Positions 38,149 to 43,932 of a stretch of 64,000 nucleotides of DNA are shown here, piece by piece. Each line of letters opens with the position of its first letter. Positions within the stretch are counted from its first letter, which is position 1. Source of the DNA: Dokdonella sp. GTDB taxonomy: Bacteria > Pseudomonadota > Gammaproteobacteria > Xanthomonadales > Rhodanobacteraceae. The position numbers and the translations under genes were made by a program. The DNA lies in assembly GCF_019634775.1 (NCBI RefSeq), contig NZ_JAHCAS010000001.1, positions 806,001-870,000 of the forward strand, in the 5' to 3' direction. Under the pieces are notes generated by a model. The model was not told the DNA's origin, did no database searches, and was given only the letters and a program-made list of their open reading frames with translations.

Positions 38149-39177
38149 TCAGAAGCTTTCATCGAAGGCGACTTCACCTTGCACACCGACCTGGTAGGCC
38201 GAAACGCGACGCTCGAAGAAGTTGGTCACTTCCTGCACGTCCTGCAGGTCCATGAAGGCGAACGGGTTCTTCGCACCATAGTGTTTTGGCATGCCGAGCT
38301 GGCCGAAGCGCTGGTCGGCGCAGTATTCGAGGTACTGACGCATCTCGCGCGCGGAGATGCCCGCGACGCCACCGGACAGCACGTCCTCGGCAAACTGCAT
38401 CTCGCATGCAATCGCCTCGTCGAGCATCTCGACCACCTCGCGCTGCATGGCCGCGTCGAACAGCTCGGGTTCCTCGGCGCGCACCGTGCGGATCACCTCG
38501 AAGGCGAAGGCCATGTGGCAGCTTTCGTCGCGGAACACCCAGTTCGTGCCCGAGGCCAGCCCGTGCAGCAGACCGCGCGAACGCAGGAAGTAGACGTAGG
38601 CGAACGCGGCGAAGAAGAACAGGCCCTCGATGCAGGCGGCGAAGCAGATCAGGTTCAACAGGAACTGGCGGCGCTGCTCGCGCGTCTCGATGCGATCGAG
38701 GCCCTGGATCGAATCGATCCACTTGAAGCAGAACGCGGCCTTGCGCTGGATCGACGGAATGTTCTCGACTGCGGCGAAGGCACGGTTGCGCTCTTCGGGA
38801 TCGGGCAGGTAGGTATCGAGCAGGGTCAGATAGAACTGCACATGCAGCGCCTCTTCGTACAACTGGCGCGACAGGTACATGCGCGCTTCGGGCGCATTGA
38901 TGTGCTTGTACAGGTTCAGCACGAGGTTGTTTGCCACGATCGAATCGCCGGTGGCGAAGAACGCAACCAGACGATGGATGAGATGGCGGTCGGCCGGCGA
39001 CATCTTCGCCTTGAGATCGTTGATGTCCGGCGCGAAGTCGACTTCGTCGACCGTCCAGGTATTGCGGATCGCGCTGCGGTACATCTCGTAGAACGCCGGG
39101 TAGCGCATCGGCCGCAGGGTCAGCTCGAAACCGGGATCGAGCAGGTGGTGGCGGGTGGTCGGGGGCTGGGCTGACAT
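38149..39177 (-). CDS. nrdB: class Ia ribonucleotide reductase beta subunit
   Basis: 342 residues. It houses the di-iron/tyrosyl-radical cofactor of the aerobic reductase that makes dNDPs. Ligand motifs are intact: YEEALHVQFY has Glu, His and the radical Tyr in the E. coli spacing, IEGLFFFAAFAY supplies a Glu, and RDESCHMAF supplies Glu and His. The C-terminal tail that docks NrdA is present (QGEVAFDESF). The start is ATG 39177; a GTG at 39207 is possible but lacks a ribosome site. It lies 278 bp after nrdA, and no gene is seen in the gap. Confidence 0.95.
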   Translation of the reverse strand: MSAQPPTTRHHLLDPGFELTLRPMRYPAFYEMYRSAIRNTWTVDEVDFAPDINDLKAKMSPADRHLIHRLVAFFATGDSIVANNLVLNLYKHINAPEARMYLSRQLYEEALHVQFYLTLLDTYLPDPEERNRAFAAVENIPSIQRKAAFCFKWIDSIQGLDRIETREQRRQFLLNLICFAACIEGLFFFAAFAYVYFLRSRGLLHGLASGTNWVFRDESCHMAFAFEVIRTVRAEEPELFDAAMQREVVEMLDEAIACEMQFAEDVLSGGVAGISAREMRQYLEYCADQRFGQLGMPKHYGAKNPFAFMDLQDVQEVTNFFERRVSAYQVGVQGEVAFDESF

Positions 39178-39455
39178 GGATTGCTCGCTGGGGTTCGTGG
39201 CGGTCACGGCGCCGTGCGCCGTGTTGCGGAATCAGGGCGTATGCTGGAAGTCGCGATGGAACGTGATCGGGGAGCAGGCGCATGCGGGACCGGCAGCCTT
39301 GCGTGTACATCCTGGCGAGTCGGCGCCATGCAGCGTTGTATCTCGGTCAAGAACCTGCCCGCCCGTGTCCGGCAGCACCGCAACGATCAGGTTGAGGGCT
39401 TCACGCCGACGTGCGCAACATGGCATGGGCGAAGCGACATCGAAACGCACGCCGC

Positions 39456-41987
39456 CTACTGGCACGCCTCGCAGTACTCCGGGTTCTCGAGCGAGCAGAA
39501 CACCGCCTTGGTCGCGTCCTCCGCGCTCGGGGCACCCGGCGCGGGCGGCAGCGTGGCGGTGGCGCCGGCGCCGACGGTAGCCTTGGCGATCTTCGTGGCC
39601 GGGCGCGAGCGCAGGTAGTAGGTCGTCTTCAGGCCGGCCTTCCAGGCATACATGTACATCGACGATAGCCGGCCGATCGCCGGGTTTTCCTGGAACAGGT
39701 TGAGCGACTGGCTCTGGTCGATCCAGGCACCGCGTGCGGCGGCGTGATCGATCAGCACCTTCTGCGGCAGTTCCCACACCGTGCGGTAGATCGCGCGCAG
39801 GCGTTCGGGGATCGCGGCGATGCCCTGGATCGAGCCTTCGGCGAGCTTGATCTGGTCGCGGACCGCCTCGGTCCACAGGCCGAGTGTCTTCAGTTCCTCG
39901 ACGAGGTAGCGGTTGACGACGAGGAAGTCGCCCGACAGCGTCTCGCGCTTGAACAGGTTCGACACCTGCGGCTCGATGCATTCGTAGCAGCCGGCGATCG
40001 AGGCGATCGTCGCGGTCGGAGCGATCGCGATCAGCAGCGAATTGCGCAGGCCGCCGCTGCGGATGCGTTCGCGCAGCTGGTCCCAGCGTTCCTTGGCGAT
40101 GGTTGGCCGCGCGTTCGGCCAGTAGTCGAACTGCAGTTCGCCGTTGGCCGCACGCGACTCGTGGAAACCCGGGTGCGCGCCGAACTGGTCGGCGAGGTCG
40201 CAGCTCTGGGTCAGCGCATGGAAGTAGATCTCCTCGGCGATGCGCGCGGACAGTGCCTGCGCCTCGGGAGCGTCGAACGGCAGGCGCAGCTGGAAGAACA
40301 CGTCCTGCAGGCCCATCACGCCAAGACCGACCGGGCGCCACTTGCGGTTTGCCGTGGCGGCGGTGTCGATCGGGTAGAAGTTGAGGTCGATCACGCGGTC
40401 GAGCTGGCGCACCGCTGTGGCGACCGTGGCGGCGAGCTTGTCGAAGTCGAACGCGCCATCGACGACGTGGCGGGCGAGGTTGATCGAGCCGAGGTTGCAC
40501 ACCGCGGTCTCGCTGTCCGAGGTCACCTCGAGGATCTCGGTGCACAGGTTCGACAAGTGAATGACGTTGCCGGGGCGAGCGGTCTGGTTGGAGGTCGCGT
40601 TGCTGCGGTCCTTGAACGTCATCCAGCCGTTGCCGGTCTGGGCGAGCGTGCGCAGCATGCGCGAATAGAGTTCGCGCGCCTTGATCGTCTTCACCGCGAG
40701 GCCGTCGGCCTCGGCCTGCCGGTAGGCGGCGTCGAAGGCGGCGCCGAAGGTGTCGACGAAGTGCGGCACGGCCTTCGGGTCGAACAGCGACCAGTCGGCG
40801 TCGGCCTCGACGCGGCGCATGAACTCGTCGGGGATCCAGTTGGCGAGGTTGAGGTTGTGCGTGCGCCGCGCCTCGTCTCCGGTGTTGTCGCGCAGTTCGA
40901 GGAACTCCTCGATGTCGGCATGCCAGGTCTCGACGTAGACGCAGGCCGCGCCCTTGCGCTTGCCGCCCTGGTTGACCGCGGCGACCGAGGCGTCGAGCGT
41001 CTTCAGCCAAGGCACCAGGCCGTTGGAGTGGCCGTTGGTGCCACGGATCAGCGAGCCGCGCGAACGCACGCGCGAATAGGACAGGCCGATGCCGCCGGCG
41101 AACTTGCTCAGCTTGGCCACGTCGGCGTACTTGTCGTAGATGCTTTCCAGCGAATCCTGCGGCGAGTCGAGCAGGAAACAGGACGAAAGCTGCTCGTGCG
41201 CGGTGCCGGCGTTGAACAGGGTCGGCGAGCTGGCGATGTATTCGAGCGAGGACAACAGGCGATACAGTTCCAGCGTCTCGGCGAGCGAGCCGCCGCCGAG
41301 CGCACAGGCGATGCGCATGAAGAAATACTGTGGTGTCTCGACGACCTTGCGCAGTTCGGGGTGGCGCAGCAGGTAGCGGTCGTAGACCGTACGCAGGCCG
41401 AAGTACTCGAAACGGCGCGTGGCAAGCGGGTCGATCGCGTCGTTGAGCTTGCGTGCGTTGAGGGCGACGAAGTCGCGCAGGCGCGCGTTGACCAGGCCAA
41501 CCTCGGCACCGCGCGCGATCGCCTGCGAGAACGACTGGATTTCCTGGCCCTGCACTTCCTTGTCGATGTACGAGGACAGCAGGCGGGCGGCGAGGAAACC
41601 GTATTCCGGCTCCTCGGCAGTCAGCGCGGCGGCGGTGCGGATCGACAGTTCATCCAGCTCGCGCGTGGTCGCGCCATCGTAGATGCCACCGATGGTTTTC
41701 AGGGCCACGCGCATGGGATCGACATCGTGCAGTCCTTCGGCACTGCGCGTGACGGCGCGCACGATCTTGTTGAGGTCGACCGCTTCGCTGGAACCGTTGC
41801 GTTTGGTCACGCGCATCTGTGCCGGGCTGTGCGGCGCGGTCAGGCTGAAATCAGCCGTACCGGGCGCGCAGACGACGGAGGGCGTGTCGGTGGCGGCACG
41901 CGCGGCTGGAGGTCTGTTCATCGATTCAGGAACGTTGCGCGGATCGAGGTCGGGCGCGCCAGCGGCGCGGGTGTCGAGTGGTTGCAT
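39456..41987 (-). CDS. nrdA: class Ia ribonucleotide reductase alpha subunit
   Basis: 843 residues. An N-terminal extension of about 55 residues precedes an ATP-cone (from RVTKRNGSSEAVDLNKIV), the allosteric activity domain. The ten-stranded barrel carries the catalytic cysteines and glutamate in SSCFLLDS, SNLCTEI and AVCNLGSINLA, and the C-terminal redox pair is in NPEYCEACQ. It reduces ribonucleotides with NrdB. The start is ATG 41987 with GGAG at 42000-41997 (leftward). A long leader with a cobalamin riboswitch and NrdR boxes precedes it, so expression should fall when B12 or dATP is plentiful. Confidence 0.96.
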   Translation of the reverse strand: MQPLDTRAAGAPDLDPRNVPESMNRPPAARAATDTPSVVCAPGTADFSLTAPHSPAQMRVTKRNGSSEAVDLNKIVRAVTRSAEGLHDVDPMRVALKTIGGIYDGATTRELDELSIRTAAALTAEEPEYGFLAARLLSSYIDKEVQGQEIQSFSQAIARGAEVGLVNARLRDFVALNARKLNDAIDPLATRRFEYFGLRTVYDRYLLRHPELRKVVETPQYFFMRIACALGGGSLAETLELYRLLSSLEYIASSPTLFNAGTAHEQLSSCFLLDSPQDSLESIYDKYADVAKLSKFAGGIGLSYSRVRSRGSLIRGTNGHSNGLVPWLKTLDASVAAVNQGGKRKGAACVYVETWHADIEEFLELRDNTGDEARRTHNLNLANWIPDEFMRRVEADADWSLFDPKAVPHFVDTFGAAFDAAYRQAEADGLAVKTIKARELYSRMLRTLAQTGNGWMTFKDRSNATSNQTARPGNVIHLSNLCTEILEVTSDSETAVCNLGSINLARHVVDGAFDFDKLAATVATAVRQLDRVIDLNFYPIDTAATANRKWRPVGLGVMGLQDVFFQLRLPFDAPEAQALSARIAEEIYFHALTQSCDLADQFGAHPGFHESRAANGELQFDYWPNARPTIAKERWDQLRERIRSGGLRNSLLIAIAPTATIASIAGCYECIEPQVSNLFKRETLSGDFLVVNRYLVEELKTLGLWTEAVRDQIKLAEGSIQGIAAIPERLRAIYRTVWELPQKVLIDHAAARGAWIDQSQSLNLFQENPAIGRLSSMYMYAWKAGLKTTYYLRSRPATKIAKATVGAGATATLPPAPGAPSAEDATKAVFCSLENPEYCEACQ

Positions 41988-41996
41988 GTGGCGGTT

Positions 41997-42022
41997 CTCC
42001 CATGACCGGACCGAAGACCTGC
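41997..42022 (-). promoter_or_regulatory. expression platform of the nrdA riboswitch (anti-sequester element and ribosome site)
   Basis: The leader RNA carries GCAGGUCUUCGG (42022-42011), an exact 12-nt complement of CCGAAGACCUGC (42210-42199) in the conserved 3' strand of the riboswitch. The ribosome site GGGAG follows 10 nt later. The GGUCUUC part could instead pair with GAGAACC over the ribosome site (6 of 7 pairs). These two pairings exclude each other, the expected logic of a translational switch. No terminator with a U-tract is seen. Confidence 0.6.
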
Positions 42023-42189
42023 TCCCGCGCGCAGGGCTGTTCGGTACCGCTGTGCGAAAACGACGACGCCACGGGACGGGCGCCTGCGCTCCGTCCAGCG
42101 ACGCGCCTCCCCGCGGAAGCGGCCACCTGCGCCCGGTTGCGACCGTCGATGGCAGGCGTCTCACGCGCTGCGAACGATGGCCGTGGCCG

Positions 42190-42362
42190 GGCGTGTCGGC
42201 AGGTCTTCGGGCTCGCGGATACGGGTCGTTCGACCCACCTCCCCCCGACGCTTCCCAAGGCTCGCGCCTCAGTGCCTGGAACGGGGTTCGTTTCCGCCTA
42301 CCGCTGCGGGGCAGCTCCGGAATCACACCGGATTCCCTTTTCAACCAGCCGCGGAAGGAGTC
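42190..42362 (-). promoter_or_regulatory. cobalamin (B12) riboswitch upstream of nrdAB
   Basis: On the leftward strand the conserved aptamer blocks occur in order: GGTTGAAAAGGGAATCCGGTG, which begins near 42347, then GAGCTGCCCCGCAGCGGTAG, CACTG, TTGGGAAG, and GCGAGCCCGAAGACCTGCC ending near 42196. The P1 stem can form between GTCGGTA (about 42376-42370) and TGCCGAC (42200-42194). The order, spacing and invariant bases match the B12-element consensus closely. Placed before a B12-independent reductase, it should switch nrdAB off when adenosylcobalamin is abundant. Confidence 0.95.
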
Positions 42363-42379
42363 CGGGCCGGTACCGACCA

Positions 42380-42427
42380 CCACAACCTATTGTGTCGGCA
42401 GGCCGCAGTCAACCGAACATTTTGTGT
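42380..42427 (-). promoter_or_regulatory. nrdAB promoter with tandem NrdR boxes
   Basis: The promoter read leftwards is TTGACT (42412-42407), a 17-bp spacer and TAGGTT (42389-42384). Box 1 at 42380-42395 (CCACAACCTATTGTGT) covers the -10. Box 2 at 42412-42427 (ACCGAACATTTTGTGT) touches the -35. Both resemble the ACAC-A/T-ATATA-A/T-GTGT NrdR consensus and their centres are 32 bp apart, about three helical turns, as in known NrdR operators. NrdR represses reductase genes when bound to dATP/ATP. nrdR itself is not in the window. Confidence 0.75.
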
Positions 42428-42528
42428 CCGGGCACTTGCAATTCCCGATCGAGCGGGACGTCCAGGCAAAACCGGGCGATGGCCGGGACATCACACGCCG
42501 CACGCCGCGACGCGGATGCGGACCGCCA

Positions 42529-43932
42529 CTATGGCGTCTCGAATCCGTGCATGAAGATGCGATCGGGACGGTATTCGTGGGCGCCGAGGTCGAAGCCGGC
42601 ACCCTGCGGACGCGGCACGCCATCGACGTCGTATGGCGGGGCCAGGGTCGCGCTGCCGCTGTCGATCGCGCTCGAGCCGGCACGCAGGTGCAGGTCGAAC
42701 GGCGGAGCGACGAAGTGGGCGGCGGCGTTGCTGAACTCGAGGTTGTGGTCGACCACGAGGTTGATGCCGGTGGTGTCGATGTCGGCGGCGAGATTGTTGC
42801 GCACGACCACGTTCTCGCTCGGCCGACCATCCTTGTGCGCGCGCACGAGGATCCACGGCGGCCCCGGCGTGCCGCCGGCGAGATCGATGACCGTGTTGTT
42901 GATGACGCGCGAGTTGCGCATGCCGTAGAAGCTGATGCCGTGCCAGTGGTCGGTGACGACGATGTTGTTCTCCACGATCCAGTCGGTGAAGAAGCCGTCG
43001 AAGCAGCCGATGCCCTGCATCGCGCTGCGCAGCGGGTTGGCCGGGTTGGTCGCGTTGATGAACACATTGCCGCGCAGGACCACGCCGACCACCTCGCCGT
43101 GCCCGGGGCCTCCCGGGCCGATCGACCAGCTCTGGAAGCCGTCGTCGTGGTTGTCGTCGAAGTCGTCGTCGATCAGGTTGTTCTGCACGCGGTTGTATTC
43201 ATAGAGGCCATGGTCGCCGATGCCGCGGATGCCGTCGGCGGAGAAACCATCGATGAGGTTGCGCCGCACGACCGCATGCCGGCCGGTGACGGCGATGCCG
43301 AAGCGCACGTTGCGGATGCGGCTGTCCGTGAGGCTGACGCGATCACCGCCGATCTCGACACCGCTCGAGGCCAGGTCGACCCATTGCGCAGGGCCCCAGG
43401 CCGAGGCGTCGGCGATCGAATGGATGTCGAGATTGGCCAGCTCGACATCCCAGGTCGGGCCGAACCAATTGTGGTTGAGCGCCTCGACGATCGTCGTCTG
43501 TTCGTTGTTGCCGCCGAACGACGGGCTGATCGTGAGGTCGCGGATGATCCAGTGCTGCGCCGAGCGCACCAGCAGGGTGCGCACCTGCGGCGCATGGCCG
43601 GGCTGCGCGGCAATCGTGACCGGCGCCGTGTTGTAGGCGTGTTGGATGCTGAGATCGCCATGGAAGCCGTTGCGCAACCAGATCGTGTCGCCGGCTCGCA
43701 CCGGCGCACCCGGATTGATCGTGACCGGGGTCATGCCGGGCGTGTATGGATAGCTCGGCCAGTTGCGTGTCTGGATCAGGCCGGCGTCGAAGACGTGGGC
43801 AAGCGAACGCCATGGATTCGCCGCGCTGCCGTCGCCGGTGACGTCGCTGCCGGCAATCGGGTCGATGTAGAACGAGGCCGCCTGTGCGCTGGCACCGGCG
43901 AACAACAGCAAACCCAGCATTGCGTGCCGCAT
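42529..43932 (-). CDS. secreted right-handed beta-helix protein with GFE-type C-terminal tail
   Basis: 467 residues. A signal peptide (MRHAMLGLLLFAGASAQA) is followed by a parallel beta-helix body with many short Asn/Val/Ile rungs (RNVRFGIAVTGRHAVVRRN, IVENNIVVTDHWHGISF, VVVRNNLAADIDTTGIN), as in pectate-lyase-like and carbohydrate-active proteins. The choice-of-anchor style ending (FDLGAHEYRPDRIFMHGFETP) is a short tail I associate with exported proteins of this bacterial group. Its enzymatic activity, if any, cannot be assigned. It lies upstream of the nrdAB promoter on the same strand, without sharing it. Confidence 0.75.
   Translation of the reverse strand: MRHAMLGLLLFAGASAQAASFYIDPIAGSDVTGDGSAANPWRSLAHVFDAGLIQTRNWPSYPYTPGMTPVTINPGAPVRAGDTIWLRNGFHGDLSIQHAYNTAPVTIAAQPGHAPQVRTLLVRSAQHWIIRDLTISPSFGGNNEQTTIVEALNHNWFGPTWDVELANLDIHSIADASAWGPAQWVDLASSGVEIGGDRVSLTDSRIRNVRFGIAVTGRHAVVRRNLIDGFSADGIRGIGDHGLYEYNRVQNNLIDDDFDDNHDDGFQSWSIGPGGPGHGEVVGVVLRGNVFINATNPANPLRSAMQGIGCFDGFFTDWIVENNIVVTDHWHGISFYGMRNSRVINNTVIDLAGGTPGPPWILVRAHKDGRPSENVVVRNNLAADIDTTGINLVVDHNLEFSNAAAHFVAPPFDLHLRAGSSAIDSGSATLAPPYDVDGVPRPQGAGFDLGAHEYRPDRIFMHGFETP

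Follow-up and report, generated by a model that had tools for sequence, protein, structure and literature searches.

Why would the genes of a class I ribonucleotide reductase, an enzyme independent of B12, lie behind a cobalamin riboswitch in a gammaproteobacterium? The nrdAB locus of Dokdonella sp. raises this question, and we examined it in a 64,000 nt stretch of the genome (hereafter the window, whose positions are used throughout) and in related genomes.

A cobalamin riboswitch precedes nrdAB

An earlier note on this DNA had placed a cobalamin riboswitch at 42190-42362 in the nrdA leader, on the coding strand and about 200 nt before the start codon. The element is real: in an Rfam covariance search of the window, the cobalamin model RF00174 matched 42392..42181 (-), a span that includes the proposed one, over its full length (model positions 1-189) with 111 bits and an E-value of 5.9e-27, the gathering cut-off being 31.5 bits. 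The aptamer lies on the same strand as nrdA and ends 194 nt upstream of its ATG. RF00174 was the sole Rfam family above cut-off across the 64 kb window, and a lax RNA-family scan of 41900..42600 returned nothing credible besides it. The class I reductase genes nrdA and then nrdB follow directly downstream on the same strand. NrdA exceeded the cut-offs of the Pfam families PF02867 (650.6 bits), PF00317 (75.7 bits) and PF03477, the ATP cone (42.6 bits), as well as that of TIGR02506 (726.6 bits). The features of the locus are collected in Table 1.

Table 1. Features of the nrdAB locus and its leader, in window coordinates
Feature	Position	Strand	Evidence
NrdR-box-like site 1, ACACAAAATGTTCGGT, 12/16 to the assumed consensus	42412..42427	-	Box scan
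NrdR-box-like site 2, ACACAATAGGTTGTGG, 13/16 to the assumed consensus	42380..42395	-	Box scan
Possible sigma-70 promoter (weak), TTGACT - 17 nt - TAGGTT, inside the NrdR pair	42384..42412	-	Read from sequence
Cobalamin riboswitch aptamer (RF00174)	42181..42392	-	Rfam, 111 bits
Aptamer loop L5 core, CCCCGC, kissing-loop half	42306..42311	-	L5 naming after PMC10653944 and PMC11260477 (available text)
Post-aptamer hairpin H2, conserved, candidate P13/L13, GCGGGG, 6 Watson-Crick pairs to L5	42100..42126	-	Sequence comparison
Second L13-like hairpin H3, CCTGCGCGCGGGAGCAGG, GCGGG, 5 pairs to L5, 30 nt before the ATG	42018..42035	-	Sequence comparison
Perfect 12-nt complement to the 3′ strand of the aptamer at 42210..42199, might pair with it as an alternative	42011..42022	-	Complement search
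Short hairpin, CGGT...ACCG, whose loop contains the Shine-Dalgarno sequence GGGAG (42001..41997)	41992..42008	-	Read from sequence
nrdA, large subunit of a class I ribonucleotide reductase, including an ATP cone; 843 aa counted from ATG 41987	39456..41987	-	Pfam, TIGR02506
nrdB, class I small subunit, approximate 5′ end	38149..39207	-	PF00268, 275 bits

The element is common in the order

We compared nrdA loci in related genomes. Of at least 596 loci, the 80 best were kept, and the set is therefore dominated by close relatives. The element was found upstream of nrdA at 50 of these 80 best loci; 38 were confirmed with Rfam, and 12 were recognized by motif only. Another 24 loci were tested with Rfam and had no element, and the remaining six, with at most 347 bases of stored upstream sequence, gave no motif in the motif scan applied to them. 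The earlier note had regarded the arrangement as unusual for a gammaproteobacterium, a view that these counts overturn, as the element is common in Xanthomonadales. Records bearing it include Dyella, Rhodanobacter, Luteibacter, Lysobacter and Pseudoxanthomonas, and also Archangium, Minicystis and one Acidobacteriaceae MAG, in which the aptamer overlaps the first bases of the protein match. Rhodanobacteraceae and Lysobacteraceae both have the element, as do some other phyla. In the Dokdonella family, 115 of 117 genomes had one or more cobalamin riboswitches, counted at any position in the genome.

A predicted NrdR operator adjoins the aptamer

The region upstream of the aptamer was scored against what we take to be the NrdR-box consensus and its tandem spacing of about 31-32 bp. 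Two box-like sites lie 32 bp apart, start to start, and the second overlaps the 5′ end of the aptamer. The pair scored 25/32, a value equalled by none of 2000 dinucleotide shuffles. Across 45 Xanthomonadales-side leaders the best pair averaged 23.4/32 versus 15.0 in shuffles, and a pair of at least 22 occurred in 40 of the 45 versus 0 of 2700 shuffles. In the same scan, 11 riboswitch-less loci had pairs with raw scores of 21-25, the shuffle control being that of the 45 leaders. A weaker pair, scoring 22, is present upstream of nrdJ (0/1000 mononucleotide shuffles), and the genome encodes NrdR (TIGR00244, 202.2 bits). The promoter in Table 1 was read by eye; a promoter scan of the region gave none at its threshold.

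The conservation of the boxes, also at the riboswitch-less loci, would suit an arrangement in which NrdR is the real regulator of nrdAB and the aptamer a relic or a minor tuner. We consider this highly unlikely: the aptamer scores far above its cut-off with an intact core, its loop L5 is matched by L13-like hairpins in the leader (see below), and the element is found across two families and beyond.

L13-like hairpins often occur in pairs downstream of the aptamer

According to the available text of PMC10653944, the aptamer of the E. coli btuB and P. megaterium metE riboswitches is followed by a hairpin, P13, whose G-rich loop L13 pairs with L5 (CCG-CGG in metE). For the M. tuberculosis metE and ppe2 B12 switches, the accessible part of PMC11260477 describes pairing of L5 CCC with GG in a loop of the expression platform, by which access to the start site is controlled. 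The nrdA leaders retain hairpins with GCGGGG-like loops 3′ of the aptamer. In the window, where the leader extends 210 nt beyond the last conserved motif of the aptamer, there are two of them, H2 and H3, which look like two P13/L13 kissing hairpins. Folded alone, they reached -14.5 and -8.8 kcal/mol, respectively; in the unconstrained minimum free energy fold of the whole leader, H2 was not formed and its bases were in other pairs. H2 had 93% mean column identity across a 19-row alignment, in which the changes judged by eye were mostly one-sided and one was two-sided (L089). The short hairpin around the Shine-Dalgarno sequence was weak when folded alone (-3.3 kcal/mol).

By script, 73 L5-complementary hairpins were counted in 50 leaders (49 loci and the window), whereas shuffled leaders had a mean of 7.2 and a maximum of 15. 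After correction of the start codons of L014 and L021, two such hairpins were present in 29 of the 50 leaders, three in one, one in 13 and none in seven. In the 30 leaders with at least two, the typical layout is one hairpin immediately 3′ of the aptamer and another about 30 nt upstream of the start codon; the distance from the last hairpin to this codon is 26-35 nt in 23 of the 30. Contiguous Watson-Crick pairs to L5 number six for the first hairpin in 24 of the 30 and at most five for the last in 21. An extra L13-like hairpin in mid-leader is found in the Lysobacteraceae-side leaders L031, L033, L051, L055, L056, L058, L069 and L070.

These counts bear on whether H3 is a second kissing partner or an ordinary start-site hairpin, with P13 being H2 only (or H3 only). 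We give the latter a chance just short of even. The poorer match of the last hairpin to L5 speaks for it, as do the tendency of GC-rich leaders to form GGG loops and the single P13 described in the accessible text on published corrinoid riboswitches, but it leaves the excess of L5-complementary hairpins over shuffles and the additional mid-leader hairpins to be explained. As two candidate partners exist, this leader lends itself to testing what the L5-L13 kissing loop does.

L5 and L13 change in step between two types of switches. L5 reads TGCCCCGCAGCGG in nrdA-type and TGCCCCCGCAACGG in btuB-type switches. With the former, four-C L5, an exact GCGGGG hairpin was present in 52 of 73 switches (one also matches the other class) and missing in 21; with the latter, five-C L5, GCGG[ACT]GG was found in 10 of 14 by script (three also match GCGGGG) and in the other four by eye, these switches being related and partly redundant so that the counts are not independent. 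This joint change fits the L5-L13 kissing loop described in the available portions of PMC10653944 and PMC11260477.

Riboswitches of the four-C type also precede metE at L049:11450-11687 (-) and L069:4132-4373 (-), where TIGR01371 was above its cut-off; metE, like nrdAB, codes for a B12-independent isoenzyme. In the cases examined, switches of the other L5 type stand before TonB receptors. The two L5 sub-types may be sorted by target.

We also considered an antisequestor formed with the aptamer 3′ strand. The 12-nt complement in the window was matched in quality by none of 100 mononucleotide shuffles, but it is not kept in relatives, and a conserved element of this kind was rejected; among the other scored leaders only L079 (2/100) and L074 (4/100) fell below 5/100, with other sequences.

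Control of translation is more likely than intrinsic termination

An intrinsic terminator was rejected as the general mechanism: five consecutive T occur nowhere in the 50 leaders as extracted. Ten of these (L014, L019, L021, L034, L042, L046, L053, L054, L068 and L072) were scanned short because the script had seemingly set their start codon too early, and L014 has a T7 tract in the part of its leader outside the scan. In the window, a weak terminator-like stem with a T-rich tail lies between H2 and H3 at 42084..42065 (-); terminator-like sites in the region numbered two on both strands versus 0.7 expected, one of them in the leader.

This stem, the length of the leaders and the title of the Streptomyces nrdABS paper, which refers to transcription, would agree with a switch that acts on elongation, by Rho-dependent or intrinsic termination in the leader, and not on ribosome access. 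We regard such a mode as unlikely in view of the missing T runs and the tight placement of the last hairpin near the start codon. Control by translation is more likely than control by intrinsic termination.

The riboswitch and NrdJ tend to occur together

NrdJ exceeded the cut-off in 211 of 248 genomes of the order. Fifty of the 80 genomes, all with Rfam-tested leaders, were searched for NrdJ in relation to the switch: it was found in 25 of 26 with the switch versus 12 of 24 without. In an NrdA tree of 51 rows including the window, a Xanthomonadales-side clade of 37 rows, also including the window (support 99), had NrdJ in 24 of 25 element-bearing genomes and in 1 of the 12 that lack the element; at the riboswitch-less loci outside this clade, NrdJ was present in 11 of 12. 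The absences are concentrated in Stenotrophomonas and the pair L050/L059, and the association therefore represents one or two independent events. Since such events are too few, the association corrected for the tree was not significant in an independent-pairs test: of three pairs on well-supported branches, about one agrees and two do not differ. The tree is compatible with either gain or loss of the switch and NrdJ. Two exceptions are the nearest relative, a MAG (L007) with the switch in which NrdJ was not found, and L052, which has NrdJ and lacks the switch. The Stenotrophomonas loci, with NrdR boxes and no switch, offer a natural comparison.

Two further observations concern the NrdJ proteins. 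Nine genomes of one genus (g52) gave only weak matches to the NrdJ model, with a best E-value near 1e-42; as these are weaker than the match that the Dokdonella NrdA gives, the g52 reductase seems to be of another type. In the genomes of L028 (G149) and L052 (G127), the NrdJ matches are interrupted by inserts of about 1.1 kb that keep the frame open, a pattern expected from an intein. An nrdJ intein is potentially present in Rhodanobacter fulvus according to the available text of PMC4465626.

The genome encodes NrdJ and probably salvages B12

The earlier note had predicted a class II reductase and a source of B12, and genome searches (3.54 Mb in 4 contigs, 99.99% complete) yielded both. NrdJ, the B12-dependent class II enzyme, is encoded at C1:174607-176517 and scored 591.6 bits with TIGR02504 (cut-off 399.95). 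At this place (L006:6242-10604, C1 near 174-179 kb), an 815-aa ORF with the NrdJ catalytic core is followed by a lysine/alanine-rich ORF and then by a 394-aa ORF. The latter weakly matches the C-terminal end of NrdJ-type (class II) proteins (47.5 bits), and for this reason nrdJ looks split into two ORFs.

The genome contains two cobalamin riboswitches, one in the nrdA leader and one at C1:256185. The second directly precedes a gene for a 608-aa TonB-dependent receptor (PF00593 and PF07715 above cut-off). Among NCBIfam families this receptor matches TIGR01779, the vitamin B12 receptor, best, with 435.6 bits and thus below the cut-off of 599.7; we call it BtuB-like. A PduO-type adenosyltransferase is present (PF01923, 207.4 bits), and a search of the genome detected no CobA/BtuR-type adenosyltransferase. 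CbiC/CobH was likewise absent from the genome, and judged on this one corrin-ring gene, B12 is probably obtained by salvage or uptake.

MetH is present as two ORFs (C2:604134-607789). MetE was absent from the genome by two models, with no MetE catalytic domain found. As no methionine synthase other than MetH was found, the cell would need B12 to make methionine. Xanthomonas has metH1 and metH2, according to the accessible part of PMC4239095.

A model for vitamin control of nrdAB

The riboswitch in the nrdAB leader quite probably represses the B12-independent reductase when adenosylcobalamin is plentiful, which would leave dNTP synthesis to NrdJ. We infer the direction of control, in which B12 turns nrdAB off, from the riboswitch family. 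The features of the leader together with the known family point to lower NrdAB synthesis in the presence of adenosylcobalamin, most likely through blocked ribosome entry.

In the proposed sequence of events, NrdR would set initiation by the dNTP state at a promoter adjoining the aptamer. With adenosylcobalamin bound, L5 would be able to dock onto an L13 hairpin, H2 first and then H3 near the Shine-Dalgarno site, so that ribosome entry would be blocked. At low levels of imported B12, the cell would make NrdAB and leave the B12 to MetH. In a probable salvager without MetE, the switch may in this way keep B12 in reserve for methionine synthesis. More tentative, and in our judgement somewhat improbable, is the idea of two P13 hairpins in series, where L5 would dock with the aptamer-adjacent hairpin during transcription and then be passed to the hairpin about 30 nt before the start. 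If true, this would be a two-checkpoint B12 riboswitch coupled to an NrdR operator that adjoins the 5′ end of the same RNA, and both dNTP demand and vitamin supply would be read in one short leader.

Comparison with known systems

The nrdABS operon of Streptomyces, a class Ia reductase operon, reportedly has a cobalamin riboswitch upstream, a class II NrdJ encoded in the genome and NrdR involved, as Borovok et al. are said to have described in 2006. Dokdonella resembles it, as judged from the sequence, in the riboswitch before a class Ia operon, in the NrdJ of the same genome and in a probable part played by NrdR. It differs in being a gammaproteobacterium and a probable B12 salvager with likely translational control and twin L13-like hairpins, and the gene called next to nrdB on its downstream side is an ORF of 739 aa instead of a small nrdS. 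The principle itself was already established, with class I reductase genes under cobalamin control in Streptomyces; what marks the present case as a variant is its lineage, the junction of operator and aptamer, and the paired L13-like hairpins. A choice between two essential reductases according to vitamin level, known from actinomycetes, would thereby extend to a large order of gammaproteobacteria. The open-licence PMC literature contained no report of an nrdAB riboswitch in Xanthomonadales or of a tandem P13 ('nrd' has 0 occurrences in the main text of PMC3766115), and supplements or RegPrecise tables may list nrdAB of this order.

P. aeruginosa likewise combines class Ia and class II reductases in one gammaproteobacterium, but its nrd response to B12 is described, in the available text of PMC5962746, as independent of a B12 riboswitch, unlike that expected for Dokdonella nrdAB, which has one. 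The M. tuberculosis metE and ppe2 switches share a C-rich L5 matched to a G-rich platform loop, whereas they serve other genes through another platform with one L13 per switch, as far as the accessible part of PMC11260477 describes them. The complementarity of L5 to a G-rich L13 located 3′ of the aptamer is also common to E. coli btuB and P. megaterium metE; these have one P13 in the available portion of PMC10653944, while at least two L13-like hairpins face each L5 in 30 of the 50 leaders analyzed here.
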